64,000 nt of DNA from Primorskyibacter aestuariivivens (GTDB lineage Bacteria; Pseudomonadota; Alphaproteobacteria; Rhodobacterales; Rhodobacteraceae). The position numbers were made by a program, and so were the translations under genes. Below are positions 46,190 to 63,125 of this stretch, one piece after another. The stretch covers positions 124,001 to 188,000 of the forward strand of contig NZ_JAQIOZ010000007.1 in NCBI RefSeq assembly GCF_028023675.1. Direction: 5' to 3'. Positions within the stretch are counted from its first letter, which is position 1. The number at the start of each line of letters is the position of its first letter. The notes under the pieces are model-generated. The model was not told where the DNA came from. It searched no databases and worked only from the letters and a program-made list of their open reading frames with translations.

Positions 46190-47083
46190 TCAGACCATGA
46201 TGCGCCGGGGATCGGCGATCAGACCGGCCAGATAGGTCACGAAACGCGCCGCATCCGCGCCATTGATCACCCGGTGATCATAGCTCAGATCCAGCGGCAC
46301 CATCGGCACCGGGCGCGGTGTGTCGCCGTCCCACACGGTCACGGTCTCGGTTCGGGTGATACCCAGGATGGCCACCTCGGGCGGGTTGACGATGGGTGTG
46401 AACCCGATACCGCCGATGCCGCCAAGGTTCGAGATCGACATGGACGCGCCGCCCATCTCGTCCGGGCCGACCTTGCGGTTCTGTGCGCGCGAGGCAAGGT
46501 CGGTGATTTCCGCCGCGATCTGCCACAGGCCCTTTTTGTCCACGTCACGGACCACCGGCACCATAAGCCCATGCGCGGTGTCCACGGCGATGCCGATATG
46601 CACATAATCCTTAAGGATCAATGTCTTGCCATCGGGCGAGAGCGAGGCGTTGAAGCGTGGGAACTCGCGCAGCGCCCGCGCCAGCGCCTTGGCCTGAAAC
46701 GCCAGCGCGGTGAGTTTCACAGCGCGCGCCTGTGCTTCGGACTTCAATGATTTGCGCAGCGCCTCGATGGCGCTCACATCGGCGCGGTCATGATGTGTGA
46801 CCTGCGGGATCAGCGTATTGGCCGCCGCGAGGTTGGCCGAGGCCACCTGTGCAAAGCGGCTCATCGGCTCCTCAGATACCGGGCCATACTGGCTGTGATC
46901 CACATCCCAATAGGAGGTGTCACCTGCCGGGCCGGAGGCGGCAGCGGCAGCGGGCTTTGCGCCCGCCTCCAGATCTTCGCGCCCGATGGTGGTCCGGCCC
47001 AGCGATTTGGCCAGCGCGTCGATGTCGATCCCTTTCTGCAGCGCCAGCGCGCGCACGGACGGGGCGGCTTTGACCTCACTCAT
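46190..47083 (-). CDS. 2-oxo acid dehydrogenase E2 catalytic core without lipoyl domain
   Basis: About 297 residues. A short PSBD-like segment (VRALALQKGIDIDALAKSL) is followed by the acyltransferase core. Conserved core pieces: HIGIAVDTAHGLMVPVVRDV, ISNLGGIGG and the active-site SYDHRVINGADAARF (His plus Asn, as in several PDH E2 enzymes). No biotinyl/lipoyl domain is present. Lipoyl arms are instead on the protein at 48529-49857. ATG 47083 is preferred; ATG 47095, overlapping the ALDH stop, is possible. Last gene of the leftward arm. Confidence 0.9.
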   Translation of the reverse strand: MSEVKAAPSVRALALQKGIDIDALAKSLGRTTIGREDLEAGAKPAAAAASGPAGDTSYWDVDHSQYGPVSEEPMSRFAQVASANLAAANTLIPQVTHHDRADVSAIEALRKSLKSEAQARAVKLTALAFQAKALARALREFPRFNASLSPDGKTLILKDYVHIGIAVDTAHGLMVPVVRDVDKKGLWQIAAEITDLASRAQNRKVGPDEMGGASMSISNLGGIGGIGFTPIVNPPEVAILGITRTETVTVWDGDTPRPVPMVPLDLSYDHRVINGADAARFVTYLAGLIADPRRIMV

Positions 47084-47088
47084 CGCGC

Positions 47089-48513
47089 TCACCATGCCGC
47101 CGAGATGTACTGGGTTTCCATGAATTCCAGCATGCCCTCATGCCCGCCTTCACGGCCCAGACCCGACTGTTTCACGCCGCCAAAGGGCGCGGCGGGGTCG
47201 CTGACCAGCCCGCGATTGAGCCCGACCATGCCGTATTCCAGCCGCTCGCAGACCTGCAGCGCGCGTTTGAAGTCACCCGAAAAGACATAGGCGACAAGCC
47301 CATATTCGGTGTCATTGGCGCGGCGGATGACCTCTTCCTGATCCTTGAAAGTCTGGATCGCGGCCACCGGTCCAAAGATCTCGTCGCGCACGCATTCGGC
47401 GTTTTCCGGCACGTTCGACAGCACCGTGGGCGGGTAGTAGAACCCTTTGCCTTCCGGCACCTTGCCACCACATTCGACCGACGCGCCCTTGGCCACCGCG
47501 TCGGCAACAAACTCGGCCACCTTGTCGCGCGTGTCGGCATTGACCAGCGGGCCGACATCGACGGAGGGATCGGTGCCGTCGCCCACCTTGAGCGCGGACA
47601 TCGCGGCGGTGAGACGTTTGGTGAATTCATCGGCGATGTTTTCATGTACATAGATGCGGTTCGCCGCTGTACACGCCTCGCCGAGGTTGCGCATCTTGGC
47701 CAGCATCGTGCCCTCGATGGCAACATCCATATCGGCATCGTCGAACACCACGACAGGCGCGTTGCCGCCCAGTTCCATCGCCGGTTTCAGCACCTGATCG
47801 GCAGCACCCTTAAGCAGCTTCTGGCCCACGCCGGTGGAGCCGGTGAAGCTGACCACGCGCACGCGCGGATCATGCATCAGGTGATCGACCAGCGCGCCGG
47901 TGCGGCGCGAGGGCAGCACGTTGACCAGCCCCGGCGGCACGCCCGCTTCTTCAAGCAGCGGCATCAGCGCCAGCATGGTCAGCGGGGTTTCCGAGGCCGG
48001 TTTGATGATCACCGCGCAGCCTGCGGCCAGCGCGGGCGCAATCTTGCGGGTGCCCATCGCCGCCGGGTAGTTCCACGGCGTCACCAGCACGGCAAGGCCC
48101 GCGGGCTTGTGCTGCACGACAATCCGCGCGCCAGACGCGGGGGCATGGGTGATCAACCCGTCGGCGCGCACGGCTTCTTCCGCGAACCAGCGGAAAAATT
48201 CGGCGGCATAGGTGGCTTCGCCCTTGGCGTCCGCGCCCGCTTTGCCGTTTTCCAGCGTGATCAGGTTGGCAAAGTAATCGAGCCGGGCGGTCATCAGTTC
48301 CCACGCCTTGCGCAGCACTTCCGAGCGTTCGCGCGGTGTGCGCGCGGCCCAGTCGGCCATCGCCGCCTCGGCGGCGTCCAGCGCGGCATCGGCATCAGAA
48401 ATATCGGCAGACGCGACCGAGGCCAGAACCTCTTCGGTGGCCGGATTGATCACGTCAAAGCGTTCCGACGTCTTGCGCCATTCGCCATTGATGTAGAGAT
48501 CGGTGAATTCCAT
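47089..48513 (-). CDS. NAD(P)-dependent aldehyde dehydrogenase, succinate-semialdehyde dehydrogenase-like
   Basis: 474 residues, start 48513 with GGAG 6 nt upstream (ATG 48525 would add four residues). Catalytic Cys in GEACTAANRIYV and Glu in MELGGNAPVVVF, with FTGSTGVGQKLL cofactor loop. Signature is of the GabD/SSADH type, but aldehyde specificity is not predictable. Lies between the two E2-like genes, so it probably oxidises an aldehyde from the same pathway. Confidence 0.92.
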   Translation of the reverse strand: MEFTDLYINGEWRKTSERFDVINPATEEVLASVASADISDADAALDAAEAAMADWAARTPRERSEVLRKAWELMTARLDYFANLITLENGKAGADAKGEATYAAEFFRWFAEEAVRADGLITHAPASGARIVVQHKPAGLAVLVTPWNYPAAMGTRKIAPALAAGCAVIIKPASETPLTMLALMPLLEEAGVPPGLVNVLPSRRTGALVDHLMHDPRVRVVSFTGSTGVGQKLLKGAADQVLKPAMELGGNAPVVVFDDADMDVAIEGTMLAKMRNLGEACTAANRIYVHENIADEFTKRLTAAMSALKVGDGTDPSVDVGPLVNADTRDKVAEFVADAVAKGASVECGGKVPEGKGFYYPPTVLSNVPENAECVRDEIFGPVAAIQTFKDQEEVIRRANDTEYGLVAYVFSGDFKRALQVCERLEYGMVGLNRGLVSDPAAPFGGVKQSGLGREGGHEGMLEFMETQYISAAW

Positions 48514-48528
48514 AATATTCTCCATGGG

Positions 48529-49857
48529 CTAGAGCAGGTGGCGGAGCGGTTGCTCCATGCGGCCCGCGAATTCCGAGATGAGGCCGACGGCCTCGGTGGC
48601 GCTGAGTTGGTGGCCCGCGCATTCCAGCGTGACGCACAGCCCAACATCCCTGCGCGTCAGGGTCAAGACCGGCGCGGTTTCCGCACCAAGGGACACCGTG
48701 CTGACCCGGCTCATGCGCAGGTCGCGCAGGATCAGGTCGGGCGCGCTGTCGTCTTCGGCGTCGGTGATGGCACCGAAAGGCCCGGCAGGGACGTAATAGG
48801 CGTGGCTTTGGCCGAAACGTTCGACCGACACGGTTGCCATTTCCCGCCCAAGGCTGGCTGCGGCAAGTCCCGCAAGCAGCGCATTGGTGTCGCTCAGACC
48901 CGATGTCTCTGCGGCCCAGGCGGCGAAGGCGTCAAAGCCGTCACTCGGCAGGTCCGCCGTCAGGTGGCGCGATGCCTCTGCCGCTCCTGTCGACGCTTGT
49001 GCGGAGGGCAGCGCCTTGAGCACCTCGATATCAGCGACGTGGAACGGCTGCGGATGTCCCGCCTCAACCAGCCGGTTCAGGTCAAGCCCCTGTTCCAGCG
49101 CCAGACGCCGCGCCTTGGGCGAGGCGAGAATGCGGCCATCAGCGCGTGCCGGCGCGGGCGCCTTGGTGGCGGCCGGTTTCGGTGCGGGCTTGGTCTCTGG
49201 CTTTGCGGCAGGGGCGGTTTCGGCCTTGGGCGCGGAGCTTGGGGCGGCTTTGGCCCCGGATTGGCTGCGCTGCACGGGCGCGTCTGGCTTCTCGGTCGAG
49301 ATGATCGCGATGGTGTCGCCCACCGGGGCCTCTTCGCCCGCCTCGGCCAGAAGCGCTGCGACGAACCCGTCATGCCCCGCTTCGACCTCCATGGTGGATT
49401 TGTCGGTTTCCACCTCGAACAGGATGTCGCCAGCCGCCACCGCATCGCCCGGGGCCTTGTGCCATGCGACAAGCAACCCGGTGTCCTGGGCCATACCAAG
49501 CGCGGGCATGATGACTTCCTTGCCATCGGGCAGGGCGGTGTCGTCTGCGCCCGCATCGTCCGCTGCGGCCTCGGTCGAAGCCGCAGGCGCGGCATGCGCG
49601 ATGCTGCCGCTATCCTCGGCACTGTCCGAAATCAGCGCAATGACATTGCCCACCGGAACCTCGGCCCCGGCCTCGGCCTGCACATCGGTGAGGAAGCCAT
49701 CGGCGGGGGCCTCGACCTCCATCGTGGCCTTGTCGGTTTCCACCTCGAAGAGCGCATCGCCCGCCTTGACCGCGTCGCCGGGGCTTTTCAGCCAGCTCAC
49801 GATCAGACCGGTGTCCTGCGCCATCCCGAGGGCGGGCATGATCACCTCATGCGGCAT
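48529..49857 (-). CDS. Double-lipoyl carrier protein with degenerate E2 core
   Basis: 442 residues. Two lipoyl domains, each with ETDKxTMEVEA (lipoyl Lys 43 and 153), an Ala/Pro linker, and a PSBD (about 242-282, ILASPKARRLALEQGLDL). The C-terminal region (about 305-442) looks like the end of an acyltransferase core. It keeps a His (CAGHQLSATEA) but the HxxxN/D position is Ala, and the first half of the core is missing. It should deliver acyl groups but not catalyse transfer. Overlaps E1 beta by 11 nt. Confidence 0.88.
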   Translation of the reverse strand: MPHEVIMPALGMAQDTGLIVSWLKSPGDAVKAGDALFEVETDKATMEVEAPADGFLTDVQAEAGAEVPVGNVIALISDSAEDSGSIAHAAPAASTEAAADDAGADDTALPDGKEVIMPALGMAQDTGLLVAWHKAPGDAVAAGDILFEVETDKSTMEVEAGHDGFVAALLAEAGEEAPVGDTIAIISTEKPDAPVQRSQSGAKAAPSSAPKAETAPAAKPETKPAPKPAATKAPAPARADGRILASPKARRLALEQGLDLNRLVEAGHPQPFHVADIEVLKALPSAQASTGAAEASRHLTADLPSDGFDAFAAWAAETSGLSDTNALLAGLAAASLGREMATVSVERFGQSHAYYVPAGPFGAITDAEDDSAPDLILRDLRMSRVSTVSLGAETAPVLTLTRRDVGLCVTLECAGHQLSATEAVGLISEFAGRMEQPLRHLL

Positions 49858-50842
49858 GGATCATCTCCCCGGACATGAGTTTGCGGGCGTTCTCTGCCAC
49901 CGCTTCGGGCGTGGGCACTGTGATGTCCTCAAGCGCCGGGCTGAAGGGCACCGGCACATCCATCGCGCCCATGCGCAGCACCGGCGCGTCGAGATGGTAA
50001 AAGGCTTTCTCGTTGATGCGGCTGGCAATTTCGCCAGTGATGCCAAAGCTTTGATGGCCTTCGTCCACGACAATCACGCGGCTGGTCTTTTTCGCCGACT
50101 TGAGCAGCGCGGCCTCGTCCAGCGGCACGATGGTGCGCGGGTCGATCACTTCGGCCTCGATGCCTTCCTTGGCGAGGATTTCGGCGGCTTTTTCGCAGAC
50201 CTGCACCATCGACGAGGTGCCGATCAGGGTGATGTCCGCGCCTTCGCGCTTGATATTGGCCTCGCCAAAGGGGATCAGGAACTCCTCTTCGGGCACCGGG
50301 GCCTTGTCGTTATACATCAGCTTGTCTTCGAAGATCACCACCGGGTTGTTGTCGCGGATGGCGGTCTTCATCAGGCCCTTGGCCTCATAGGCCGAGGAGG
50401 GCATCGCAACCTTGAGACCCGGGATATGGGCCACCAGCGCATGCAGCGATTGCGAGTGTTGCGCAGCAGAGCGGCGGGTCGCGCCGAGATTGGTGCGCAG
50501 CACCAGCGGCACGCTGAGCTTGCCGCCGGACATGTAATGCGTCTTGGCGGCCTGGTTGCAGAGCTGATCCATGATCAGGTAGATGAAGTCGCCGAACATC
50601 AGGTCGACCACGGGGCGGGACCCGGTCATGGCGGCGCCGACGGCGATGCCCATGAAACCCGGCTCGGCAATGGGCGTGTCAACCACGCGCTCGGTGCCGA
50701 ATTCCTCGACCAGACCGGAGAGCACCTTGAACGGCGTGCCCGCCTCGGCCACGTCCTCGCCGATGATGAAAACGGTCTCATCCCGGCGCATCTCTTCGGC
50801 GAGCGCTTCGTTCACCGCCTGGGACAGGGTAATATTTCGCAT
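49847..50842 (-). CDS. 2-oxo acid / acetoin dehydrogenase E1 beta subunit
   Basis: 331 residues, transketolase-like pyrimidine domain plus C-terminal transketolase domain. Pattern FIIGEDVAEAGTPFKVLSGL and VVDTPIAEPGFMGIAVGAAM are typical, then VVVDEGHQSFGITGEIASRI. Partner of the E1 alpha gene just upstream (10 nt apart). Uses thiamine diphosphate. Full length. Confidence 0.93.
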   Translation of the reverse strand: MRNITLSQAVNEALAEEMRRDETVFIIGEDVAEAGTPFKVLSGLVEEFGTERVVDTPIAEPGFMGIAVGAAMTGSRPVVDLMFGDFIYLIMDQLCNQAAKTHYMSGGKLSVPLVLRTNLGATRRSAAQHSQSLHALVAHIPGLKVAMPSSAYEAKGLMKTAIRDNNPVVIFEDKLMYNDKAPVPEEEFLIPFGEANIKREGADITLIGTSSMVQVCEKAAEILAKEGIEAEVIDPRTIVPLDEAALLKSAKKTSRVIVVDEGHQSFGITGEIASRINEKAFYHLDAPVLRMGAMDVPVPFSPALEDITVPTPEAVAENARKLMSGEMIHAA

Positions 50843-50853
50843 GATGTGTCTCC

Positions 50854-51861
50854 TCAGGCCGTGTCGCGCAGCAGCGCATGGGGAATGTCGGTAAAGACGT
50901 GCATGTCGACTTCGGATTCGTCCGGATACTTGGCGTTCAGCGCGTATTCGACGGCGTCCGATGCATCCTTCTTGATCTCTTCGTTCATCGCCTCGATCTC
51001 ATCTTCGGAGGCAATACCTTCCTCGACGAGCCAGGAGCGGAAGCGGATGATCGGATCCTTGTTTTCCTTCCAGTCCTTTTCCTCGTCCTTGGAGCGATAA
51101 TATTCGCGGTTGATGTCGCCCACATGGTGGCCGTGGTAGCGATAGGTCATCAGTTCCATGAAGAACGGGCCTTCGCCCTTGCGGGCGCGTTCGACCAGTT
51201 TCTGGGTCAGCGCATTGACGGCAAGCACATCCTGCCCGTCCACCTGATGCGCCTCGATGCCAAAGGCTTCGGCGCGGGCGGTGATGGAGCCGGCGGCGAT
51301 TTCCTCGGTCTTGGTATACTCAGAGTAGCCGTTGTTTTCACAGGCATAGATCACCGGCAGGTTCCACAGCGCGGCCATGTTCATGACCTCGTACATCAGG
51401 CCCTGTGCGGTGGCACCGTCGCCAAAGAAGCAGACGGTCACGTCCTGTTTGCCCAGCAGTTTCGAGGTAAAGGCCGCGCCGGTGGCGATGCCCATGGAGC
51501 CGCCGACGATGGCGTTGGCCCCAAGATTGCCGTTGGACTGGTCGGCGATATGCATCGAGCCGCCCTTGCCCCGGCAATAGCCTTCTTCCTTGCCCAGAAG
51601 TTCGCAGAACATCTCCTTGAACTCCGCGCCTTTGGCGACGCAGTGGCCGTGACCCCGGTGGGTCGAGGTGATCTTGTCATCCTTGGTGAGCGCTTCGCAG
51701 ATGCCCACGGCCACGGCCTCTTCGCCGGAATACATATGGGTCAGCCCCGGCATTTTGGCCGAGAGGTAAAGCTGGTTGGCATTGTCCTCGAAGGTGCGGA
51801 TGCGCACCATCTGGCGGTACATGCGCAGATAATCTTCGGTGTTAGTCTTGGCTTTGGCCAT
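50854..51861 (-). CDS. 2-oxo acid / acetoin dehydrogenase E1 alpha subunit
   Basis: 335 residues, start at ATG 51861 (the open frame continues 33 nt upstream). Thiamine-diphosphate motif GDGATAQGLMYEVMNMAALW ... CENN is complete. THRGHGHCVAKGAE and GKGGSMHIADQSNGNLGANA resemble AcoA-type acetoin dehydrogenase alpha subunits. AAGGGGG lies 9 nt before the start. Two GC hairpins precede it (separate entry). Confidence 0.93.
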   Translation of the reverse strand: MAKAKTNTEDYLRMYRQMVRIRTFEDNANQLYLSAKMPGLTHMYSGEEAVAVGICEALTKDDKITSTHRGHGHCVAKGAEFKEMFCELLGKEEGYCRGKGGSMHIADQSNGNLGANAIVGGSMGIATGAAFTSKLLGKQDVTVCFFGDGATAQGLMYEVMNMAALWNLPVIYACENNGYSEYTKTEEIAAGSITARAEAFGIEAHQVDGQDVLAVNALTQKLVERARKGEGPFFMELMTYRYHGHHVGDINREYYRSKDEEKDWKENKDPIIRFRSWLVEEGIASEDEIEAMNEEIKKDASDAVEYALNAKYPDESEVDMHVFTDIPHALLRDTA

Positions 51862-51885
51862 AGCGGGTTTCCCCCTTGAACGGGC

Positions 51886-51941
51886 GCCGGGCAAAAGCCC
51901 GGCCTACATCATCGGCGGTTGGCCGGGCAGTGCGCCCGGCC
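51886..51941. repeat. Two GC-rich hairpins with the same core, REP-like
   Basis: Between the M24 gene and E1 alpha: GCCGGGC-AAAA-GCCCGGC (51886-51903) and GGCCGGGC-AGTGC-GCCCGGCC (51921-51941). Both stems share GCCGGGC/GCCCGGC. In the mRNA they could attenuate or stabilise. The repeated core suggests a REP-type element. No T-run. Confidence 0.55.
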
Positions 51942-51948
51942 TTCCGTC

Positions 51949-53259
51949 TCAGTAACGGTTTGCGATCGGCAGCTCTTCGGCCGGGAAGAGCGAGATGACC
52001 TCGCAGCCGGTCTCGGTCACCACCACCTCTTCTTCGATCCGTGCGGCTGAATAGCCGTCCGTCGCAGGGCAGTAGGTTTCCAGCGCAAAGACCATGCCGG
52101 TCTTGATCTCCATCGGGTGCTCCATGCTCACCGCGCGGGAGATGATCGGGCGTTCGTGCAGCGCCAGACCCAGCCCGTGGCCGAATTGTAGACCAAAGGC
52201 CTGATCCTCGTTCGCGAAACCAAGCGATTGCGCCGTCGGCCAGACCTCGGCCACCTTGTCGGTGGTCACGCCCGGTTTGATCATCGCGATGGAGGCGTCG
52301 ATCCATTCGCGCGCCTTCACATAGGCGTCGTTCTGCGACGGTGTCGCGCGGCCCACGTTGAAGGTCCGGTAATAACAGGTACGATAGCCCTGATATGACT
52401 GGAGAATGTCAAAGAAAGCCTGATCGCCCGGCCGGATGAGCCGGTCGGTGAAGTTGTGCGGGTGCGGGTTGCAGCGTTCGCCGGAAATGGCGTTGATCGC
52501 TTCCACATCGTCCGAGCCCATCTCGTAGAGCAGCTTGTTCGACATGGCGACGATGTCGTTTTCGCGCACGCCGGGTTTCAGCTCTTCGTAGATCATGTGG
52601 TAGACGCCATCCACCATCGAGGCGGCCTGGGTCAGAAGCTGGATTTCGTCCCAGTTCTTGATCTCGCGCGCCGCCAGCATGATCTGCTGACCGTCGACGA
52701 CGTGAATGCCCTCTTCCTGCAGCGCATGGAACATCGCCGTTTCGGCATAGTCCACACCCACCGGCATATCGGCCATGCCCGCATCCTTGATCAGCTGGGC
52801 GATCATCTTGGCGTATTTTTTCATCAGGCCGAATTCCGGCGGGATGGTGCCGCGCATGCCGACAACACCGGCAAGACAGTGATCGGGCTCAAGCCAGTCG
52901 GAATAGCGCTGGTGATGCACCGCCGCCGAGCCGAAATCCCAGACATAGGGGCTGTCATCGCCGGTGAGCAGGCAGAAACGGCACATCTTGTCCCGTTCCC
53001 ATTCGCCGATCTTGGTCGAGGTCACATAGCGGATGTTGTTCACGTCAAAGAGCAGCAGCGAACCGGCAGGCGAGTTCTGCAGGCTCTGCCGCGTGCGGGC
53101 GAGACGGTAACGGCGCAGGCGGTCATGGTCGACGCGGCGCTCGAAATCGACCGACGAGTGACCCCAGGCTGGGATCTTGTCGCGCCATTCCCAGTTGGTT
53201 TCAAGGTCCTGCGGGGTGAGCAGGTTGGGCATAAGGGCATTGCCGGGACGTTCTGACAT
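51949..53259 (-). CDS. M24 (pita-bread) family protein with altered metal site
   Basis: 436 residues. The C-terminal pita-bread domain (about 205-430) aligns with M24 enzymes such as Xaa-Pro dipeptidase and creatinase. Expected ligands: first Asp D284 (AFFDILQ), His 361 (QFGHGLGL), Glu 394 (FALETYCP), Glu 409 (RIEEEVVV). The second Asp, normally in GYxSDxTRT, is replaced by Cys 295 (GYRTCYYRTF). So a normal dinuclear site is unlikely. It may be a metal-free or altered amidohydrolase, like creatinase. Substrate unknown. Confidence 0.82.
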   Translation of the reverse strand: MSERPGNALMPNLLTPQDLETNWEWRDKIPAWGHSSVDFERRVDHDRLRRYRLARTRQSLQNSPAGSLLLFDVNNIRYVTSTKIGEWERDKMCRFCLLTGDDSPYVWDFGSAAVHHQRYSDWLEPDHCLAGVVGMRGTIPPEFGLMKKYAKMIAQLIKDAGMADMPVGVDYAETAMFHALQEEGIHVVDGQQIMLAAREIKNWDEIQLLTQAASMVDGVYHMIYEELKPGVRENDIVAMSNKLLYEMGSDDVEAINAISGERCNPHPHNFTDRLIRPGDQAFFDILQSYQGYRTCYYRTFNVGRATPSQNDAYVKAREWIDASIAMIKPGVTTDKVAEVWPTAQSLGFANEDQAFGLQFGHGLGLALHERPIISRAVSMEHPMEIKTGMVFALETYCPATDGYSAARIEEEVVVTETGCEVISLFPAEELPIANRY

Positions 53260-53323
53260 TGGAAACTCCTTTCGGGTGCGGCCATGCGCACCCGCATTTT
53301 GCTGAAAAATCTGCGGTTGCGGC

Positions 53324-54133
53324 CTATTTCGTCACCCAGCCACCGTCGATCGAGATCATCTGACCGGTCATGTAGTCGCTGTCATCCGAGGCCAGGAACG
53401 AGGCGGTGCCGACGATATCCTTGGGATAGGAGACGCGCTTGATCACCAGGTTGTTCTCGACGATATCGTCATAGGCCTGACCTTCGCGCTCCTTGAAGCC
53501 AATCTCGATCAGGTCCTTGTCAAGCTGCTCCCAGAGCGGCGTGATCACGACGCCCGGTGCATAGCCGTTCACGGTGATGTTGTGCTCGGCCAGACCCAGC
53601 GCGCCGCATTCGGTGAGCGCGAGACAGCCGTATTTCGAGGTGCAGTAAACCGTCACATCGACCAGCGGCTTGCGCGAGGCAATCGAGCCCACATTGATCA
53701 GCTTGTAGGGATGATCTTCCATCGGACCCTGGGCGATCATCTGGCGGGCCACTTCCTGCATGCCCAGCCACATCGCCTTGGTGTTGACGTTCATGATCAT
53801 GTCCCAGTTGTCTTCATCGATATCCATGAAGAACCGGGGCTTGTTGAGACCGGCGTTGAACAGACCCACATTGATCGAGCCAAACGCCTCGACCGTGGCG
53901 GCGACGGCGGCGGCGTTGTCTTCGCGGCTCGTCACGTCCATTTTGACGGCGATCGCCTTGCCGTTGCCCGCCGCGTTGATGGCGTCAGCGACTTTCTGCG
54001 CCTCGACGCCATCGAGATCGCCAATGCAGACATTGGCACCCTGGGCGGCAAAAGCCTCGGCATTGGCCTGACCCATGCCGCGAGCACCACCGGTGATCAG
54101 AATATTCTTACCTTTCAGGCGATTGGGGTCCAT
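53324..54133 (-). CDS. SDR family NAD(P)-dependent oxidoreductase
   Basis: 269 residues. Cofactor motif TGGARGMGQANAEAF, FNAGLNKPRFF, catalytic NVGSIASRKPL and YCTSKYGCLAL (Ser, Tyr, Lys all present). Related to the SDR on the opposite arm at 57229-58026. Both have NAGxNKPxxFxD and end DSDYMTGQ. A secondary-alcohol/polyol dehydrogenase is likely. Second gene of the leftward arm. Confidence 0.92.
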   Translation of the reverse strand: MDPNRLKGKNILITGGARGMGQANAEAFAAQGANVCIGDLDGVEAQKVADAINAAGNGKAIAVKMDVTSREDNAAAVAATVEAFGSINVGLFNAGLNKPRFFMDIDEDNWDMIMNVNTKAMWLGMQEVARQMIAQGPMEDHPYKLINVGSIASRKPLVDVTVYCTSKYGCLALTECGALGLAEHNITVNGYAPGVVITPLWEQLDKDLIEIGFKEREGQAYDDIVENNLVIKRVSYPKDIVGTASFLASDDSDYMTGQMISIDGGWVTK

Positions 54134-54150: not shown

Positions 54151-55980
54151 TCACAGTGTTCTGTTTGGTATTATCAAGGCATCCGCCCGGGACTGGGCGG
54201 CGCGCAAGGCTTCGCGCGGGGTCGTGAAGCCCCGCAGCATGTCGTGAAATTCTTCGCCGCAGATCTGGATCAGCCCGCAGAATTCGGGAACCGGCGGGCG
54301 CGGCCAGAATTGCAGCTCGTCGCGCCAGGACATGGCGTCCACGGCCTCGAAAATCGGCGAGGCGCGGCGCACCTCCGGGTCGGAGCCGACGGAATAACGC
54401 GGATTGGTGCGGCTGCCGTTCTGGACATAGAGTTTCTGCGCCTCGGGTGATGTGAAGACTTTGAGCGCCTCGACCGCCGCAGGCACCCGTTCGGGGGCAA
54501 GGTTGGCGGGAATGCCCATGGCATATCCACCGACCGGGGCCACCTGTTTCGCGCCGGGGCCCGAGGGATGCGGCAGGTATCCGGTCTGGCCATTGGCGGG
54601 CGAATTTTCGTCCAGTTCGAAATAGGGGGCCAGAAGCGTGTAGCCATAGGCCATCGCGATCTTGCCCGCCGCGTAGGGGCGGACCCGCTCATACCATGAC
54701 ATCGACAGGATATCGGGCGGTGAATATTTCAGAAGCTCCAGCAGGAACTCAGCCGCCCTCAGACCCGCTTCGGTATCTATGGTCGCGTGGTAATCGCGAT
54801 CGGCCAGATGATCCGTTTCAAACCCACCGGCGATTTCAGGCAGGTTGACCACGGGCTGGCCGAAATCCGCCATGGTCATCAAAACCGTATGGCCAAGCGC
54901 CGTGCCACGCGCGGCGTTCCATGCAATGCCATAGCGCCCATGGCGCGGGTCATGCAGTGTCTCGGCGGCCTGCAAGAGCGCGTCGGTCGTGGCGGGCGGC
55001 TCCAGCCCGGCCTCGGCAAACATGTCCCGGCGATAGAACAGCAGCTCCGGCGTGGTTTGCGCCGGCACGCCATAGGGACGTCCGCCCCAATGCGTGGCTT
55101 TCCAGCCAGCGGTGTGAAAGTCCGCCGGGTCCAGCCTGGCGAGGTCCATGACCTGATCCAGCGGCATCAGCACATTCTTGTCAGCGAATTCGCCAACCCA
55201 CGGCAAATCCACCGCGATAATATCATATTGGCTGTTGGGGCGTTCGGCGTTGCGCAGCGCTTCTTCGCGCAGCCGGTCGATGGAAAAGGCGCGCTGGCTG
55301 ATCCCGGTGCCGATCACCTGCTCGAACTGGCGCTTTAGATTGTCCATCACCATGAAGGTCGGGTCGCCATGCACCAGCACCCGCAGCCCGCCCGAGACCT
55401 TGAGCGGCTCCGAACGCACGCTCAGCGGCGGAATGGATTTGGCGGCGGAATAGCTGCCGCCAAAGTAATAGTCGCGGCCTTCCTGCGTCCCCGACAGGCC
55501 CGCGAACCGCGTCTGGGCAAGGCGCTGCACGCGGCCCGACAGCTGCATCCACTGCGCCAGGAGCTTGTCGCTGGGATGCATGGAAAAGCTTTTGCCGGTC
55601 TTGGTGCGCGGGCGCTGTTCGATCAATCCCGCCTCGATCATCTCCTTCATCCGGCGATTCGCCGTGGCATAGGGCACACGGCTTGCCCCGATCAGGGAGG
55701 TGGGGGTGATGGTCTTGGCTTCGAAATGCCCCTCGATGAGATGCAGAGCCATGCGCAGATGCGCGTTGGGCGCAACAATATCCAGCGAGGATTCCAGCTC
55801 GTCACTCAAATCTTCCAGAAAGGACAATATCGCCAGCGGCTCGGCATTCGCCTGTGGCGACCCCTTTGCGCTTTGCTTATGTCCTGCCATGGCGTTCATG
55901 AGTGAATGAGACCTTCCGCCAGTATGGCGCGTTATGGATGGTGGGTTCCTGTCCGATCTGGATGAATTGGAATCGTTCAC
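54151..55980 (-). CDS. Regulator with winged helix fused to a solute-binding-protein domain
   Basis: About 609 residues from GTG 55980, which has AAGGAG 5 nt upstream; ATG 55899 is an alternative. No signal peptide, so cytoplasmic. Winged-helix-like domain at about 74-139 (TPTSLIGASRVPYATANRRM, KEMIEAGLIEQRPRTKTGKS). From about 197 to 580 is a family-1-like ABC solute-binding domain, with TTPELLFYRRDMFAEAGLEP and PVGGYAMGIPANLAPERV. First gene of the leftward arm and divergent from the sugar transporter. It looks like a one-component regulator that senses the transported compound. Confidence 0.8.
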   Translation of the reverse strand: MNDSNSSRSDRNPPSITRHTGGRSHSLMNAMAGHKQSAKGSPQANAEPLAILSFLEDLSDELESSLDIVAPNAHLRMALHLIEGHFEAKTITPTSLIGASRVPYATANRRMKEMIEAGLIEQRPRTKTGKSFSMHPSDKLLAQWMQLSGRVQRLAQTRFAGLSGTQEGRDYYFGGSYSAAKSIPPLSVRSEPLKVSGGLRVLVHGDPTFMVMDNLKRQFEQVIGTGISQRAFSIDRLREEALRNAERPNSQYDIIAVDLPWVGEFADKNVLMPLDQVMDLARLDPADFHTAGWKATHWGGRPYGVPAQTTPELLFYRRDMFAEAGLEPPATTDALLQAAETLHDPRHGRYGIAWNAARGTALGHTVLMTMADFGQPVVNLPEIAGGFETDHLADRDYHATIDTEAGLRAAEFLLELLKYSPPDILSMSWYERVRPYAAGKIAMAYGYTLLAPYFELDENSPANGQTGYLPHPSGPGAKQVAPVGGYAMGIPANLAPERVPAAVEALKVFTSPEAQKLYVQNGSRTNPRYSVGSDPEVRRASPIFEAVDAMSWRDELQFWPRPPVPEFCGLIQICGEEFHDMLRGFTTPREALRAAQSRADALIIPNRTL

Positions 55981-56035
55981 ATCGGCTCCTTCCGAAAATG
56001 TCCAAAGTGACAGCCAAAGGGTATGCCCTATGCAT

Positions 56036-56085
56036 CCAAAATGGATATATAAAAGTTCATATCGGATATATTTTGTACATTTTGG
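56036..56085. promoter_or_regulatory. Candidate operator in the divergent promoter region
   Basis: The 223-nt gap between the regulator and the binding-protein gene contains an A/T-rich core. Perfect 8-bp inverted arms CCAAAATG (56036-56043) and CATTTTGG (56078-56085) flank two direct copies of GGATATAT (56043-56050 and 56064-56071). Further CCAAA copies lie to the left. This would place a regulator over both divergent promoters. Confidence 0.5.
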
Positions 56086-56203: not shown

Positions 56204-57151
56204 ATGAAACTGCGTATGACCCTTGCTGCGACCACCGCCATGTTCCTGGCTGGCGCGGCGACTGCCGAAACCATGACCATCGGCATCACGCAAAACAACG
56301 TCGGTGTGGACAGCTATCAGACCACATACGAAAAAGCCTTTATCGAAGCCGCTGAAGCCAACGAGAATGTCGAAGCGGTTGTTCTGGACGCCGGTGGCGA
56401 CGTTGCCCGTCAGATCGCGCAGATGGAAGACCTCATCCAGCAGGAAGTTGACGCCATCATCATCTGGCCGACCAACGGCGAAGCGGTGATCCCGGCGGTG
56501 CGTAAAGCGCATAATGCGGGCATTCCGGTCATCGTGACCAACTCGAACATTGCCGAAGCGGGCTTTGACTTTGTCGCGTCCTTCTCCGGTCCCGACAACA
56601 TCACCCAGGGCAAGCGCTCGGCCGAAATCATGTGCGACAAGTTCAAGGCCATGGGTATCGAGAACGAAGCCAAGGTTGTGCACATCACCGGCCAGCCCGG
56701 CTACACCACTGCCATCGAGCGTGCCAAAGGCTTTGACGACCGTCTTCCCGAGGTCTGCCCGAACGTAGAGCAGATCGACAAGCAGCCCGGCGACTGGAAC
56801 CGCGAGAAGTCGCAGAAAGTCATGGAAGCCTTCCTCGTCAAGTATGACGACATCGACGGCGTCTATGCCGGTGACGACAACATGGGCGTTGGCGCTCTGA
56901 ACGCCGCCAAGGCCGCGGGCCGCGAAGGCATCATCTTTGTCGGCGCGACCAACTTTGCCGTGGGCTACGAGGCCATGGAGCGTGGCGAATACTGGGGGTC
57001 GATCTACCAGTCGCCCGTGGATGACGCCAAAGCGGCTCTGAAAACCGCCATCGAAACCCTCGAAGGCAAGGAACTGCCCTTCCTGAACTACTTCGACACG
57101 CCGAAGATCACCCAGGACAACATGGGCGACTTCACCAAGCCGGTCTTCTAA
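56204..57151 (+). CDS. Sugar ABC transporter substrate-binding protein (CUT2/ribose-type)
   Basis: 315 residues with a signal peptide cleaved after AGAATA. Type-I periplasmic binding fold: IGITQNNVGVDSYQTTYEKA, QIAQMEDLIQQEVDAIIIWP, then YAGDDNMGVGALNAAKAAG. Matches RbsB-like proteins. GGGAGGAAAC is upstream of the ATG. The high-abundance component: a terminator follows (57167-57197). Substrate not predictable; likely a pentose, hexose, polyol or small glycoside. Confidence 0.93.
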   Translation: MKLRMTLAATTAMFLAGAATAETMTIGITQNNVGVDSYQTTYEKAFIEAAEANENVEAVVLDAGGDVARQIAQMEDLIQQEVDAIIIWPTNGEAVIPAVRKAHNAGIPVIVTNSNIAEAGFDFVASFSGPDNITQGKRSAEIMCDKFKAMGIENEAKVVHITGQPGYTTAIERAKGFDDRLPEVCPNVEQIDKQPGDWNREKSQKVMEAFLVKYDDIDGVYAGDDNMGVGALNAAKAAGREGIIFVGATNFAVGYEAMERGEYWGSIYQSPVDDAKAALKTAIETLEGKELPFLNYFDTPKITQDNMGDFTKPVF

Positions 57152-57166
57152 GACACGCTTGTTACG

Positions 57167-57197
57167 ACGGGCGCGGCATATGCCGCGTCCGTTTTTT
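57167..57197 (+). terminator. Intrinsic terminator/attenuator after the binding-protein gene
   Basis: Stem 57167-57178 with 57181-57192 (12 bp including one G-T pair) followed by six T (57192-57197), 15 nt after the stop. Partial termination here would give more binding protein than permease, as in many ABC operons. Confidence 0.8.
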
Positions 57198-57228
57198 CTT
57201 GATTTGTCAAAAAACTGGGGAGGGCGTC

Positions 57229-58026: not shown

Positions 58027-58061
58027 TATGCGCCCGAAGGGGCGAAAGGGGAGGTACATTC

Positions 58062-59036
58062 ATGGCAGGGTTGACCAAGTCACAGATCGGCGGGTTCCTG
58101 GCGCGGCAAGGCATTCTTGTCGCCTTTGCGCTGTTCATCATCGGTTTCACGATCGCAAATCCGCGCTTCATTGATCCCGACAATATCATGGGCGTCGTAC
58201 GCTCATCCGCGATCCTCGGGGTCATGGCGCTTGGCGTGACCTTTGTGGTGATCAGCGGCAATCTCGACCTTTCGGTGGGGTCGATGATGTCCTTTTCGAC
58301 CATCGTGGTCCTTGATCTGCACGACAAGATCGGGCCGACACTGGCCATTCCGACGATGTTTGCCATGACGCTGGCACTGGGGGCCTTCATCGGCTTCCTT
58401 GTGGCGTTCCTGAAGCTGAACTCACTGATCGTCACGCTCGGCATGCTGTCGGCCATTCACGGCCTGACGCTGACCTATTCGGGCGGCAAGAACATGGATA
58501 TCGCCGACAAGGAAGGAACGTGGTTTTCCGTCTTCGGCCAGGGGGACATTGCGGGCATCTCGGTGCCGATCCTGATCTTCCTGCTTCTGGCGCTCGTCCT
58601 TGGCGTCGTGCTGGCCAAGACGCCGTTTGGCCGCAAGGTCTATGCGGTGGGTGGTAATGGCACGGCGGCGACATTCTCGGGCGTGCGTCGCGCGCGGGTG
58701 GTGTTCATGTGCTACATCATCAGTGCCTTCTGCGTGGCCACCGCGGGCCTGCTTCAGGCATCCCGCTCGCTGGGTTCGCAAAACACCGTGGGACAGGGGC
58801 TTGAGCTTGAGGTTCTGGCAGCGGTCATCCTTGGCGGCGCGTCGCTTCTGGGCGGCTCCGGCACCATCTTCAAGACCGTCATCGGGGTTCTGATCCTCGG
58901 TTTCATCACCAATGGCCTGCTGCTGGTCGGGTTGCAGTTCTATGTCCAGTTCGTCGTGACCTGGGTCATCATCATCCTTGCTGTCTGGCTCGATATCGCA
59001 GCCAAGCGCGGCAAGCTTTGGTCGCCGATCGCGTAA
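58062..59036 (+). CDS. Sugar ABC transporter permease (RbsC-like), first
   Basis: 324 residues starting at ATG 58062 (GGGGAGG upstream); the frame is open upstream only inside the SDR. Eight to ten hydrophobic helices. Family blocks: GVTFVVISGNLDLSVGSMMS and GNGTAATFSGVRRARVVF, then GASLLGGSGTIFKTVIGVLI. Pairs with the next permease. Confidence 0.92.
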   Translation: MAGLTKSQIGGFLARQGILVAFALFIIGFTIANPRFIDPDNIMGVVRSSAILGVMALGVTFVVISGNLDLSVGSMMSFSTIVVLDLHDKIGPTLAIPTMFAMTLALGAFIGFLVAFLKLNSLIVTLGMLSAIHGLTLTYSGGKNMDIADKEGTWFSVFGQGDIAGISVPILIFLLLALVLGVVLAKTPFGRKVYAVGGNGTAATFSGVRRARVVFMCYIISAFCVATAGLLQASRSLGSQNTVGQGLELEVLAAVILGGASLLGGSGTIFKTVIGVLILGFITNGLLLVGLQFYVQFVVTWVIIILAVWLDIAAKRGKLWSPIA

Positions 59037-59048
59037 GGGGGAAAGACA

Positions 59049-60050: not shown

Positions 60051-61558
60051 GTGATCCAACACCCGTTCTGCGCCTGGAAGGCATCGTCAAGACCTTCCCC
60101 GGTGTGCGCGCCCTTGATGGTGTGTCCCTGACAATCCTGCCCGGCGAGGTTCATGCGCTCATGGGCGAAAACGGTGCCGGGAAATCCACCCTGATGAAAG
60201 TACTGGGTGGCATTCACCAGCCCGACGAGGGCCAGATCATCGTCAGCGAAGAGCCGGTCGTCATGTCCGGCCCGCTGGACGCCAAGGCCAAGGGCATCGT
60301 CTTTATCCACCAGGAACTGAGCCTGGCCGATGAGTTGAGCGTCGCGGAAAACATCTATCTGGGTGAGTTGCCGCGCAAACGTTTCGGGCTGGTCGATTGG
60401 GCCGAGCTTGAGGCCAAGACCAACGCGATCCTTGAAAAGCTCAAGGTGGGTTTCAACGCCAAGACGCGGGTCGGCGATCTTTCCATCGCCAATCAGCAGA
60501 TGGTCGAGATCGCTCGCGCACTGACCGTGGACGCCAAGGCGGTGATCTTTGACGAACCGACCGCGTCGCTGACCGATGCGGAAAAAATCGTGCTCTTCGA
60601 AGTGATCGCGGACCTTCAGGCGCAGGGTGTGGGCATCGCCTATATCTCGCACCGGATGGAAGAGATCTTCAAGATCACCGACCGGATCAGCGTTTTGCGC
60701 GATGGCCAGTATCAGGGCACCGTCAACACCGCCGACACCAACGAAGAGGGCGTGACGCAGATGATGATCGGGCGCAAGCTCGACCTGTCGCGCAATGAAT
60801 CCCATCATGAGCTGGGCAATGTGGCACTGGAAGTGCGCGACCTGAGCTGCGGCAAGCTGTTCCAGAATGTCAGCTTCGAAGTGCGTCGCGGCGAAGTCGT
60901 GGGCTTTTACGGGCTGGTTGGCGCGGGAAGGACCGAGATTGCCGAAACGCTGTTCGGGCTGCGCAACCCCACCGGGGGCACGATCCTTCTGGACGGTGAA
61001 GTGGTGTCCATCAATTCGCCCTATGATGCGATTGAAAAGGGCATTTCTCTGGTCCCCGAGGACCGCAAGGGGCAGGGGCTGGTGCTGGGCATGAACTGCC
61101 GGGACAATATGACCCTGCCGCAGGTCGATGACCTCAAGGCCGGGCCTTTCGTGGCAGACGGCGCGGAAATCGCGATCTTCGATCTCTATCGGGATAAGCT
61201 TGATATCCGCACACCGGGCTGGAAACAGCAGGTCGGCAACCTGTCGGGCGGCAACCAGCAAAAGATCGTCATTGGCAAATGGCTGTCGATGCATCCCAAT
61301 GTGCTGATCGTGGACGAACCCACGCGCGGCATCGACGTGGGTTCCAAGGCCGAGATTCACAACCTGCTGCGCGAACTGGCCGCGCAGGGCTATGCGGTGA
61401 TCGTGATCAGCTCGGAAATGCCCGAAGTGCTGCATGTCTCCGACCGCATCGTGGCGATGTATTCGGGCCGGATCACCCGGACCTTTACCTCCGAGGAAGT
61501 GACCGAGGACAACCTGATCCAGGCGATTTCCGGCATCGGCGGCGACAAGGTCGCCTGA
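60047..61558 (+). CDS. Sugar ABC transporter ATPase, two fused ABC domains
   Basis: 503 residues. The first domain has Walker A GENGAGKSTLMK and Walker B VIFDEPTASL. The second has degenerate Walker A GLVGAGRTEIAE, signature LSGGNQQKIVIGKWL and VDEPTRGID, as usual for RbsA/MglA types. Completes the four-gene importer. Stop overlaps the next start. Confidence 0.93.
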   Translation: MSDPTPVLRLEGIVKTFPGVRALDGVSLTILPGEVHALMGENGAGKSTLMKVLGGIHQPDEGQIIVSEEPVVMSGPLDAKAKGIVFIHQELSLADELSVAENIYLGELPRKRFGLVDWAELEAKTNAILEKLKVGFNAKTRVGDLSIANQQMVEIARALTVDAKAVIFDEPTASLTDAEKIVLFEVIADLQAQGVGIAYISHRMEEIFKITDRISVLRDGQYQGTVNTADTNEEGVTQMMIGRKLDLSRNESHHELGNVALEVRDLSCGKLFQNVSFEVRRGEVVGFYGLVGAGRTEIAETLFGLRNPTGGTILLDGEVVSINSPYDAIEKGISLVPEDRKGQGLVLGMNCRDNMTLPQVDDLKAGPFVADGAEIAIFDLYRDKLDIRTPGWKQQVGNLSGGNQQKIVIGKWLSMHPNVLIVDEPTRGIDVGSKAEIHNLLRELAAQGYAVIVISSEMPEVLHVSDRIVAMYSGRITRTFTSEEVTEDNLIQAISGIGGDKVA

Positions 61559-62424
61559 TGCGCGCAGGCTTTGCCGGGCTGGGGCGGATGGGCGCGCATA
61601 TGGCGCGCAACCTGTCACGTGCCGGGTTTGAGCTGACGCTGTGGAACCGGACGCCTGACAAGGCGCGGGCCCTGGCGGATGAGCTGGGCTGCGCGGTGGC
61701 GGAGAGCCCCCGCGCGCTCTCGGACGTGGCGGATGTGGTCGTGACCATGCTGGCCGATGATCCGTCCTCCGAGGCGGTGCATCTGGGTCCTGACGGGCTT
61801 TTCGCAGGTGGCACGCGGACATTCGTGGAAATGGGCACGATGAGCCCCGATCACATCGCCCGTCTGGTGGCAGAAGCGCCCGCCGGGACGCGCGTGATCG
61901 ACGCACCCGTGTCCGGCGCGACACAGGCGGCGGCACAGGCGCAGCTGATGATCATGGCGGGCTGCGATGCGGTCACTGCCGCACCGCTGAAACCGCTCTT
62001 TGACGCCATGGGCAAACAAACCATCTGCCTTGGCGCCAGTGGCGCGGGTGCGGTGATGAAACTTGCAGTCAACTCGCTGATCCATGGCATCAACCAGACC
62101 CTGGCCGAAGCGATGACGCTGGCCGAGGCAGCCGGTATCGCGCCCGAGGCCGCCTTTGACGTGATCGAGGCCTCTGCCGCCTGTGCGCCGATGCTGAAAT
62201 ACCGCCGCCCGCTCTATCTCGACGAGGCGGGGCATGAGGTGACCTTTACCGTGGCGCTGGCGCGCAAGGATATGGAGGTCACCGCCGATCTGGCCCGCAG
62301 GCTGGGCACCGACATGCCGCAGGGGCTGAGCACATTGGACATTCTCAAACAGGCCGAGGCAAAGGGATTTGGTGCCCGCGACATGGCCTCGATCCTGAAT
62401 TACATGCGAGGGGAAAGCTCATGA
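61558..62424 (+). CDS. 3-hydroxyisobutyrate-dehydrogenase-family NAD(P)-dependent oxidoreductase
   Basis: 288 residues starting at ATG 61558 (TGATG overlap); the open frame upstream lies in the ATPase gene. N-terminal GFAGLGRMGAHMARNLSRAG Rossmann motif, then the substrate motif DAPVSGATQAA. The catalytic Lys is in GAVMKLAVNSLIHG. Oxidises or reduces a beta-hydroxyacid-type compound, for example a tartronate semialdehyde relative; exact substrate unknown. Confidence 0.9.
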   Translation: MRAGFAGLGRMGAHMARNLSRAGFELTLWNRTPDKARALADELGCAVAESPRALSDVADVVVTMLADDPSSEAVHLGPDGLFAGGTRTFVEMGTMSPDHIARLVAEAPAGTRVIDAPVSGATQAAAQAQLMIMAGCDAVTAAPLKPLFDAMGKQTICLGASGAGAVMKLAVNSLIHGINQTLAEAMTLAEAAGIAPEAAFDVIEASAACAPMLKYRRPLYLDEAGHEVTFTVALARKDMEVTADLARRLGTDMPQGLSTLDILKQAEAKGFGARDMASILNYMRGESS

Positions 62425-63125
62425 AAGCAGCACTTTTTGTCGGAGGCTGGGAAGGCCACAACCCCACCGCCTTTGCCGATTGGTACAAGGACCTGCTGGA
62501 GGCCAACGGCTTTACGGTCGATGTCTATGACACGCTGGAACCGCTGGAGCGGCCCGAGGAGCTGGCCGATCTCGACCTGATCACACCGATCTGGTCCTCG
62601 GCCCGGTCCGGGCATCGCGAAGAATTTGGCAACATGACCAAGCCGCAGGAAGACGGGCTGCTGAAGCTGATCGGCGAAGGCTGTGGTCTTGCCGGGTGGC
62701 ACGGGCATATGGGTGACGCGTTCCGCGACCGGCCCACGTATCATTTCCTGATCGGCGGGCAATTCGTGGCGCATCCGCCGGGCTGGCCTGACAATCTGCA
62801 ACCGGTCGAGGATTACATCGACTATGACGTCACGATCTGTCAGCCCGATCATCCGCTGGTCGAAGGTATCCGCAGTTTCCGCATCCGGTCCGAGCAATAT
62901 TACATGCTCACCGATCCGTCGAACAACGTGCTGGCCACCACCACCTTTTCCGGTGATCACCTGTGGTGGATCGAAGGCACGGTGATCCCGGTCACATGGA
63001 CACGGCGCTGGGACAAGGGGCGGGTGTTCTATTGCTCCATCGGGCACGAGCTTGACGACTTGAGAGTGCCGCAGGTCACCGAAATGATCCGGCGCGGCGC
63101 GATCTGGGCGGCGGGCGGCATGTAA
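62421..63125 (+). CDS. ThuA-like protein (trehalose-utilization family)
   Basis: 234 residues. GATase-like fold of the ThuA family: FVGGWEGHNPTAFADWY near the N-terminus, GCGLAGWHGHMGDAFRDRPT and PVTWTRRWDKGRVFYCSIGH. ThuA-type proteins occur with oxidation pathways for disaccharides and inositol-like sugars. Overlaps the oxidoreductase by 4 nt and is the last gene of the rightward arm. Confidence 0.85.
   Translation: MKAALFVGGWEGHNPTAFADWYKDLLEANGFTVDVYDTLEPLERPEELADLDLITPIWSSARSGHREEFGNMTKPQEDGLLKLIGEGCGLAGWHGHMGDAFRDRPTYHFLIGGQFVAHPPGWPDNLQPVEDYIDYDVTICQPDHPLVEGIRSFRIRSEQYYMLTDPSNNVLATTTFSGDHLWWIEGTVIPVTWTRRWDKGRVFYCSIGHELDDLRVPQVTEMIRRGAIWAAGGM

Follow-up and report, generated by a model that had tools for sequence, protein, structure and literature searches.

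M24 metallopeptidases hold their metals with an Asp-Asp-His-Glu-Glu ligand set, and SgrR-type regulators join a winged helix to a solute-binding domain. In the inositol route of Thermotoga maritima, two oxidations are reportedly followed by opening of the diketone; to our knowledge the ring-opening enzyme there is not an M24 protein, and no E1/E2 complex takes part. That route has diketo-inositol and 5-keto-L-gluconate as intermediates, and its gene cluster contains a pyrophosphate-dependent kinase (PMC5931981). Here we describe a block of 15 genes in a 64,000-nucleotide window from the 4.29-Mb genome of Primorskyibacter aestuariivivens (Rhodobacteraceae; contig NZ_JAQIOZ010000007.1, positions 124,001 to 188,000; all coordinates below count from the first letter of this window). 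The block, at 46190–63125, combines a CUT2 importer and short-chain dehydrogenases/reductases (SDRs) with an M24-fold enzyme and a dedicated E1/E2 complex. It is a widespread, uncharacterised catabolic system built from known families, with one unusual enzyme at its heart. A search of open-access literature by title and start of abstract, with subscription papers and preprints outside its scope, found no paper describing the cluster.

Open reading frames (ORFs) and scans with Pfam and NCBIfam models resolve the block into two divergent operons. The left operon, on the minus strand, begins with the regulator and continues through SDR1, M24, E1 alpha, E1 beta, a double-lipoyl protein, an aldehyde dehydrogenase (ALDH) and an E2 core, with genes that overlap or stand at most 64 bases apart in the listed gaps; the right operon, on the plus strand, encodes the binding protein, SDR2, two permeases, a double ABC ATPase, a HIBADH-type enzyme and a ThuA-fold protein. 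The features are as follows.

46190–47095, minus strand: E2 catalytic core (E3-binding remnant and 2-oxoacid_dh acyltransferase, no lipoyl domain); PF00198, 256 bits
47089–48525, minus strand: ALDH, succinate-semialdehyde-dehydrogenase-like; PF00171, 543 bits; TIGR01780, 551 bits, under the cutoff of 646
48529–49857, minus strand: lipoyl carrier with two lipoyl domains, an E3-binding segment and a C-terminal domain without the catalytic DHR motif; PF00364, two stretches
49847–50842, minus strand: E1 beta; Transket_pyr and Transketolase_C; NF006667, 392 bits, above the cutoff of 321
50854–51894, minus strand: E1 alpha (TTG start as listed; more probably an ATG at about 51861); PF00676, 280 bits; TIGR03182, 356 bits, under the cutoff of 394
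51949–53259, minus strand: M24-fold enzyme of a Cys-variant family (D284, C295, H361, E394, E409, from alignments); PF00557, 127 bits
53271–53296, minus strand: hairpin directly 5′ of the M24 ribosome-binding site
53324–54133, minus strand: SDR1, dehydrogenase; PF13561 and PF00106
54151 to about 55980, minus strand (ORF open to 56103): regulator with N-terminal winged helix and SBP_bac_1 domain; PF01547, 97.5 bits; weak MarR_2 match, 15 bits
56001–56011, no strand: variant operator box by the regulator start, read by eye, not matching the strict pattern
56035–56045, no strand: operator box 1, TCCAAAATGGA
56056–56066, no strand: operator box 2, 21 bp from box 1
56204–57151, plus strand: CUT2 solute-binding protein (Peripla_BP_4); PF13407, 183 bits
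57199–58026, plus strand: SDR2; TIGR02415 (acetoin reductase), 263 bits, under the cutoff of 304
58062–59036, plus strand: CUT2 permease 1 (BPD_transp_2); PF02653, 128 bits
59049–60050, plus strand: CUT2 permease 2 (BPD_transp_2); PF02653, 132 bits
60047–61558, plus strand: CUT2 ATPase with two ABC domains; PF00005, two stretches; RbsA-like, 556 bits, under the cutoff of 745
61558–62424, plus strand: HIBADH-type beta-hydroxyacid dehydrogenase/reductase, optional in relatives; PF03446 and PF14833
62421–63125, plus strand: ThuA-fold protein, optional in relatives; PF06283, 141 bits

Every component named in a preliminary description of this DNA was confirmed in place. That description had also noted the lack of a kinase, isomerase, dehydratase or aldolase; consistent with this, no kinase, isomerase, sugar dehydratase or aldolase family appeared in Pfam scans of the block or among the NCBIfam matches listed.

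The two arms of the block travel together. M24 was found in 46 of 295 genomes of the family (E ≤ 1e-40), the importer's binding protein in 39 (E ≤ 1e-90) and both in 38, giving a Fisher p of 9e-39 (each genome is counted as independent in the Fisher tests used here). The sole genome with the binding protein but without M24 (G080) has a contig that ends 155 bases past its SDR1 match, where M24 would start. Eight M24 genomes lack the first binding protein. Four of them (G014, G158, G201 and G269) encode a second one of the CUT2 class, which resembles the first at only about 25%, and in the other four (G040, G090, G102 and G133) neither was detected. The second protein was not found in the 23 tested M24 genomes having the first one, nor in G080 (32 genomes tested, four positive), and the query for it, from L142, had no match in the plasmid collection. 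The arms are thus not independent, which upholds the earlier proposal of a single pathway. Their joint distribution indicates that importer and M24 are inherited together, and a single oxidative pathway is well supported; gene content and the co-occurrence of the arms likewise support a kinase-free, oxidative catabolic unit.

To compare the block across relatives, we used 125 M24 loci, 45 from the genomes searched and 80 from GTDB contigs, of which 116 are distinct by M24 DNA. Because the GTDB contigs are the best 80 of 355 stretches matching M24 in the GTDB-based collection, the counts of locus types favour close relatives; the identity thresholds for gene presence were set after a first look at the data, and loci that were too short are excluded from each denominator. 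The divergent set of importer, oxidoreductases and E1/E2 genes recurs in most of the 116 distinct loci and is therefore beyond chance. In 80 of them E1/E2 follows M24 (type A), and in 27 the slot is filled instead by a KduD-like SDR, a second SDR and a flavin mononucleotide (FMN) 2-hydroxyacid dehydrogenase, which replace E1/E2 and ALDH (type B); seven loci are too short to assign and two (L078 and L081) are neither at the thresholds used. No locus of the 116 has both endings, and type B loci contain neither E1/E2 nor ALDH within the retrieved stretch. The upstream part is shared: of the loci with 8.4 kb upstream (71 of type A and 24 of type B), 69 and 24 respectively have SDR1 and the regulator, 65 and 24 have the binding protein, permeases and ATPase, and 56 and 23 have SDR2. 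Type A loci with 5.9 kb downstream have E1 alpha, E1 beta and the lipoyl protein in every case (72/72), ALDH in 70/72 and the E2 core in 64/72. The HIBADH-type and ThuA genes occur in 14 of 28 type A and one of five type B loci with 10.9 kb upstream; the type B figure is too low, because most type B loci end at about 10 kb and ThuA lies at the edge of a dozen.

Because E1/E2 and ALDH are replaced in 27 of the 116 loci, the step that stays constant is SDR1–M24, to which the preliminary description had assigned no role. The earlier view that a cleavage dependent on thiamine pyrophosphate (TPP) defines the pathway was not borne out, as the same genes are swapped for SDR, SDR and FMN hydroxyacid dehydrogenase. 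Judged by locus comparison, SDR1–M24 is the constant heart of the system and E1/E2/ALDH an exchangeable part, and the minimal pathway is therefore SDR1, then M24, then either E1/E2 with ALDH or the type B module. The ORF translations of G794 (L212), from another class of the phylum, include the importer, regulator, SDR1, M24, E1 alpha, E1 beta, lipoyl protein, ALDH, E2 core and an Lpd-like ORF. The window's SDR2 is 44–52% identical to the SDR1 of relatives. By eye, L053 and L075 hold M24–E1 modules with a HIBADH-type enzyme, an OsmC-like protein, LacI and an amidohydrolase-like protein, and L075 also has a branched-chain-type ABC transporter.

The M24 protein belongs to the pita-bread fold (127 bits against a Pfam gathering threshold of 23). 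Of the other 45 family carriers, G040 encodes a homolog 54% identical to the window's protein and the remaining 44 encode homologs at 79–98%; identity is 64–85% in 14 genomes outside the family (13 of the same class, one of another) and 53–62% for relatives on Streptomyces, Rhodococcus and Paenarthrobacter plasmids; the gene also occurs in 28 of 52 genomes of a small-genome family (largest 1.4 Mb), including eight of the ten that are at least 90% complete and at most 5% contaminated. Judged by gene content and genome size, this family looks HIMB59/AEGEAN-169-like. The block is plasmid-borne in Phaeobacter, Tritonibacter and SC52 (among L162, L163, L166, L167 and L182), and on the Paenarthrobacter R1 plasmid the M24 gene lies near sulR, a predicted sulfonamide flavin reductase. 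All 17 aligned homologs keep D284, H361, E394, E409 and a PHPH stretch, and in all 17 the second metal-binding Asp is Cys295 (GYRTCYYRT), so that the window's protein lacks the full peptidase ligand set. It scores far under the cutoffs of all NCBIfam models among the matches listed. The best of these is DddP (NF043017; 123 bits, cutoff 600), and the nearest solved structure is also a DddP (82 bits), with prolidase, ectoine hydrolase and creatinase structures scoring as well.

These two DddP matches are what favours an explanation in which M24 is a lyase like those for dimethylsulfoniopropionate (DMSP), acting on an osmolyte, while the remaining genes handle an acrylate-like product. RdDddP binds two metals through Asp295, Asp297, Asp307, His371, Glu406 and Glu421, residues reported to be invariant in DddPs (PMC4108388). 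In a HMMER alignment, Asp307 is replaced by Cys295 of the window's M24 and Asp297 has no partner, with the other four ligands kept; M24 is therefore not a DddP, and its ligand set together with a score so far below the cutoff rules out a DddP DMSP lyase. No acrylate genes were recognised in the block, and we regard the osmolyte explanation as barely tenable. Our favoured guess for M24 is C–C hydrolysis or beta-elimination, with the SDR product as substrate, since the gene follows a dehydrogenase gene and precedes a complex of the 2-oxo-acid type in the family, in G794 and in the small-genome loci.

The E2 of this complex is split, with a lipoyl protein that has no DHR motif and a core that has no lipoyl domain. 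Consistent with this, two lipoyl motifs and no DHR were found in 72 of 72 lipoyl proteins of relatives, and DHR in 66 of 70 cores, none of which has a lipoyl motif (0/70). The C terminus of the lipoyl protein aligns co-linearly with the E2 core in hhalign at a weak score (E 0.07 local, 0.012 global, probability below 2%), so homology between them is only suspected. The family's E2 is split, that of family f102 is of the ordinary fused kind, and the small-genome locus L183 has a lipoyl domain by itself; within the small-genome family, the presence of a lipoyl domain between E1 beta and ALDH was checked in L183–L185. In f102 (L186 and L187), ORF translations place a GroEL-like gene divergently beside the M24–E1–E2 operon. 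E1 alpha scores best with pyruvate dehydrogenase (PDH) models and human PDH, under both PDH equivalog cutoffs (356 of 394 and 254 of 411 bits); E1 beta passes the PDH-beta subfamily model NF006667 (392 of 321) and falls under the equivalog NF008854 (394 of 454).

An acetoin-like catabolism of acyloins or diketones is a further candidate explanation and corresponds to the view of the preliminary description. On this explanation, SDR1 and SDR2 would interconvert diol and acyloin, E1/E2 would split the acyloin to acyl-coenzyme A (acyl-CoA) and aldehyde, and ALDH would oxidise the aldehyde, with butanediol-like conjugates or furanones of the autoinducer-2 (AI-2) type as substrates. SDR2 is closest to acetoin reductase, under the cutoff, and ALDH and E1/E2 are present or absent together in the loci compared. 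However, the type B loci keep the importer, SDRs and M24 with neither E1/E2 nor ALDH, and E1 alpha prefers PDH; no acetoin-dehydrogenase E1 model is among the matches to E1, the presence of such a model in the library not being established. With the acetoin E2 model NF011457 the score is 159 bits against a cutoff of 307, the best stretch lying in the first lipoyl part of the lipoyl protein. We consider the acyloin explanation quite unlikely. The E1/E2 step itself could be acyloin cleavage to acyl-CoA and aldehyde or decarboxylation of a 2-oxo acid, sequence being no guide to which.

A tree of E1 alpha, with 25 rows of which five have very long branches and unsure places, separates the M24-linked proteins into three supported lineages: the family type with G794 and G636 (96/97), the small-genome family with f102 (100/99), and Streptomyces with G040 (100/100), a group that also takes in a second Streptomyces E1 located some 9 kb away from the M24 gene there. 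L142 (in-frame stop), the two-piece E1 of G323 and long matches of the 2-oxoglutarate type were left out. The M24-linked E1 alpha proteins formed one group in none of 200 bootstrap trees, the supported branches force at least two changes, and the window genome's other E1 alpha falls in a separate clade. Either the M24–E1 pairing has arisen more than once or E1 has been replaced in place, and both speak for functional coupling between M24 and E1/E2; we infer that M24 and the TPP complex may act on nearby intermediates. This bears on a further explanation, that a sugar importer with SDRs merely shares a promoter region with the operon of a PDH isozyme. The exchange of E1/E2, the fit of E1 beta to the PDH-beta subfamily and the occurrence of M24 with E1/E2 but without adjacent CUT2 or SDR1 genes in L053 and L075 are all compatible with two such functions, yet G201, the genome of L075, has the second CUT2 binding protein elsewhere. 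Given the near-strict co-occurrence of importer and M24, the single operator region, the separate clade of the genome's other E1 alpha and the adjacency of M24 to E1/E2 of several lineages, a pair of unconnected functions is largely refuted and in our view very improbable.

The preliminary description held that E3 must come from elsewhere. This is correct for the window, where there is no E3, but some relatives differ: in six of the 37 type A loci with 8 kb of sequence available, lpdA comes after the block (one a partial match). It also follows the block on the Phaeobacter plasmid pP92_e, and the Lpd-like ORF of L212 was recognised by eye.

Palindromic boxes of the form TCCAnnnTGGA lie between the regulator and binding-protein genes, at the divergent promoter. 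Among 68 intergenic regions (the window and 67 relatives meeting length and start filters), at least one box is present in 65 and two boxes exactly 21 bp apart in 42, a spacing seen in none of 200 shuffles; the counts were made in the very regions that yielded the pattern, and the shuffling was base by base. In the window's genome the strict tandem pattern has a single match, at 56035–56066, so the regulator probably serves the block. In the regulator, the SBP_bac_1 domain is clear and the winged helix is a weak MarR_2 match (15 bits, E 0.028); its start near 55980 was chosen because the operator lies upstream of that position. We infer that the protein is a cytoplasmic sensor.

The gap between SDR1 and M24 also has a recurrent structure. 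In L082–L161, stems of at least seven pairs were found in 61 of 77 gaps (20 shuffles: mean 32, maximum 39), and in 42 of the 61 the hairpin ends at most 6 nt from the M24 ribosome-binding site, with 75 different hairpin sequences. The hairpin is perhaps an element of mRNA processing or stability. In five genomes, contigs start within the first few M24 codons or stop just before or inside M24 (L040/L125, L061, L076, L139, L294 and L295), and the hairpin is one candidate cause of such breaks. A second copy accompanied by the other CUT2 importer was rejected as their origin in four of these genomes, as G065, G074, G165 and G080 lack that importer. The flanks of the block look unrelated to it, with a GNAT acetyltransferase and a DUF815 ATPase on the left and a LysM–M23 peptidase on the right.

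Clues to the substrate come from the importer, the SDRs and the small-genome family. Both SDRs are nearest to L-iditol and acetoin/butanediol dehydrogenase models, all under cutoffs. The importer has the CUT2 make-up (Peripla_BP_4, BPD_transp_2 permeases and an ATPase with two ABC domains) and reaches no sugar-specific equivalog cutoff (RbsB 118 of 337, AraH 193 of 378, RbsA 556 of 745 bits). The nearest solved structure to its binding protein is 2ioy, a periplasmic sugar-binding protein, followed by the CUT2 binders 5hko, 4rs3 and 4rsm, which we take to be Mycobacterium smegmatis binders of C4–C6 polyols; no solved relative was found for ThuA (E ≤ 0.001) or for the binding protein of the other importer, taken from L183 (E ≤ 1e-8). 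In the small-genome family, all 13 loci examined, out of 28 carriers, place the block inside an inositol (iol) operon, in the order iolE, SDR, regulator (opposite strand), importer, SDR1, M24, E1 alpha, E1 beta, ALDH and a Gfo/Idh/MocA-like gene (iolG-like, by eye). The operon runs on to iolC, iolB and an aldolase in 11 of the 13, and the other two run off contigs. Of the L183 proteins, IolE scores above the cutoff of its model (401 of 290 bits), IolC (296 of 300) and IolB (152 of 205) fall short, and the aldolase matches general class II models only, under cutoff. In G323, M24 and iolD are about 125 kb apart; G627 also has iolD, and in G550 no iolD match over the cutoff was found. Compared with L183, the binding protein of L184, L185 and L236–L245 is 91–100% identical, and the same operons vary more in the SDR (69–72%), regulator (61–91%) and iolC (72–95%). 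We put the chance that the substrate is a polyol or cyclitol at roughly even.

A nitrogen compound is the substrate with less probability, about half as much. On this explanation, M24 would be an amidohydrolase of the creatinase or ectoine-hydrolase kind acting on an amide, betaine, guanidino compound or heterocycle, and the SDR, HIBADH-type enzyme, ALDH and E1/E2 would process the carbon skeleton. M24 does score with prolidase, ectoine hydrolase and creatinase structures, although the importer is of the sugar/polyol CUT2 class, and no recognisable amine-handling gene lies in the window's block; none was noticed in the translated L183, and the other loci had no systematic search. The genomic settings that suit a nitrogen substrate better are also among the observations that weigh against a polyol or cyclitol. 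Actinobacterial M24 relatives lie near RidA, amidase or flavin monooxygenase genes: one in Paenarthrobacter is beside RidA, an NAD(P)-dependent oxidoreductase, an SDR and lpdA, another Paenarthrobacter setting is near an amidase, RidA and a flavin reductase, and a Streptomyces relative is near flavin reductase and LLM monooxygenase genes. Amidase-like ORFs, recognised by eye, lie about 0.6 kb after ALDH in L092 and, as a further point for nitrogen, about 8 kb from M24 in L186. On the same side of the balance, no solved binder is more than a distant relative of the binding protein, and the G794 locus, without SDR2, HIBADH and ThuA, is left with one dehydrogenase. The AlphaFold2 model of M24, from a shallow alignment, has a mean pLDDT of 44.5, and the reaction assigned to M24 is guesswork. 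The strict operator pattern occurs once, at the block, in G106, but its single match in G055 is away from the block and G186 and G049 have none, so either the spacing or the boxes vary. Finally, 29 of the 46 genomes carrying the block have iolD, against 122 of the 249 other genomes (p = 0.11). As the gene is not significantly commoner in carriers, the block of the family may work independently of the iol pathway, and a dependence on that pathway is unsupported.

We tentatively favour, at a little under an even chance, a single regulated system for the uptake and non-phosphorylative oxidation of a polyol- or cyclitol-like compound, a reading drawn from gene content and locus comparison. The winged-helix/solute-binding regulator would sense the substrate inside the cell and control both promoters, and the CUT2 importer would bring the compound in unphosphorylated. 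SDR1, with SDR2, would oxidise hydroxyls to a ketone or diketone, which M24, through a metal site with a Cys ligand, would cleave by C–C hydrolysis beside the carbonyl or by beta-elimination, yielding a dicarbonyl or 2-oxo acid. From this product the dedicated E1/E2, using an E3 encoded outside the block, would form an acyl-CoA, and ALDH would oxidise the aldehyde by-product; in type B loci, two SDRs and the FMN 2-hydroxyacid dehydrogenase would finish the M24 product instead. A bolder version, speculative and rather unlikely, would make the Cys-variant M24 proteins a non-peptidase enzyme family that opens or dehydrates an oxidised cyclitol or polyol and, with SDR1 and the CoA-linked E1/E2, forms a further kinase-free route for inositol-like compounds with a swappable ending, in roseobacters and in small-genome, probably oceanic, bacteria; the dehydrogenase, M24 and E1/E2 would then stand in for IolG, IolE and IolD. 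With 355 GTDB-based stretches encoding an M24 relative and 28 of 52 small-genome genomes carrying it, a route of carbon use that still awaits assignment may be common. A short list of enzymes to assay follows from the A/B swap, the importer swap and the SDR1–M24 pair, and a pita-bread site with a Cys ligand, adjacent to TPP complexes from several lineages, would be new enzymology.

Several parts of the block can be compared with described systems. The regulator resembles SgrR-type proteins in its probable fusion of a DNA-binding domain to a solute-binding fold, but its domain is SBP_bac_1 and it had no NCBIfam match. M24 shares the pita-bread family and four metal ligands with DddP, M24 peptidases, creatinase and ectoine hydrolase, and differs in the Cys that takes the place of the second Asp in all 17 aligned homologs. 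The complex has the E1 alpha, E1 beta, lipoyl and E2 components of acetoin and pyruvate dehydrogenase complexes, but with a split E2, an E1 lineage apart from the genome's other E1 and a tie to M24. Two oxidations followed by the opening of a diketone, as in Thermotoga maritima, are one possible reading of the block, in which, unlike the cluster of that organism, no kinase was seen. The iol pathway likewise proceeds by dehydrogenation, a further step and a TPP-dependent enzyme, and the small-genome version of the block lies in an iol operon, whereas the window's block has no iol gene, kinase or aldolase and its TPP enzyme is E1/E2 rather than IolD.

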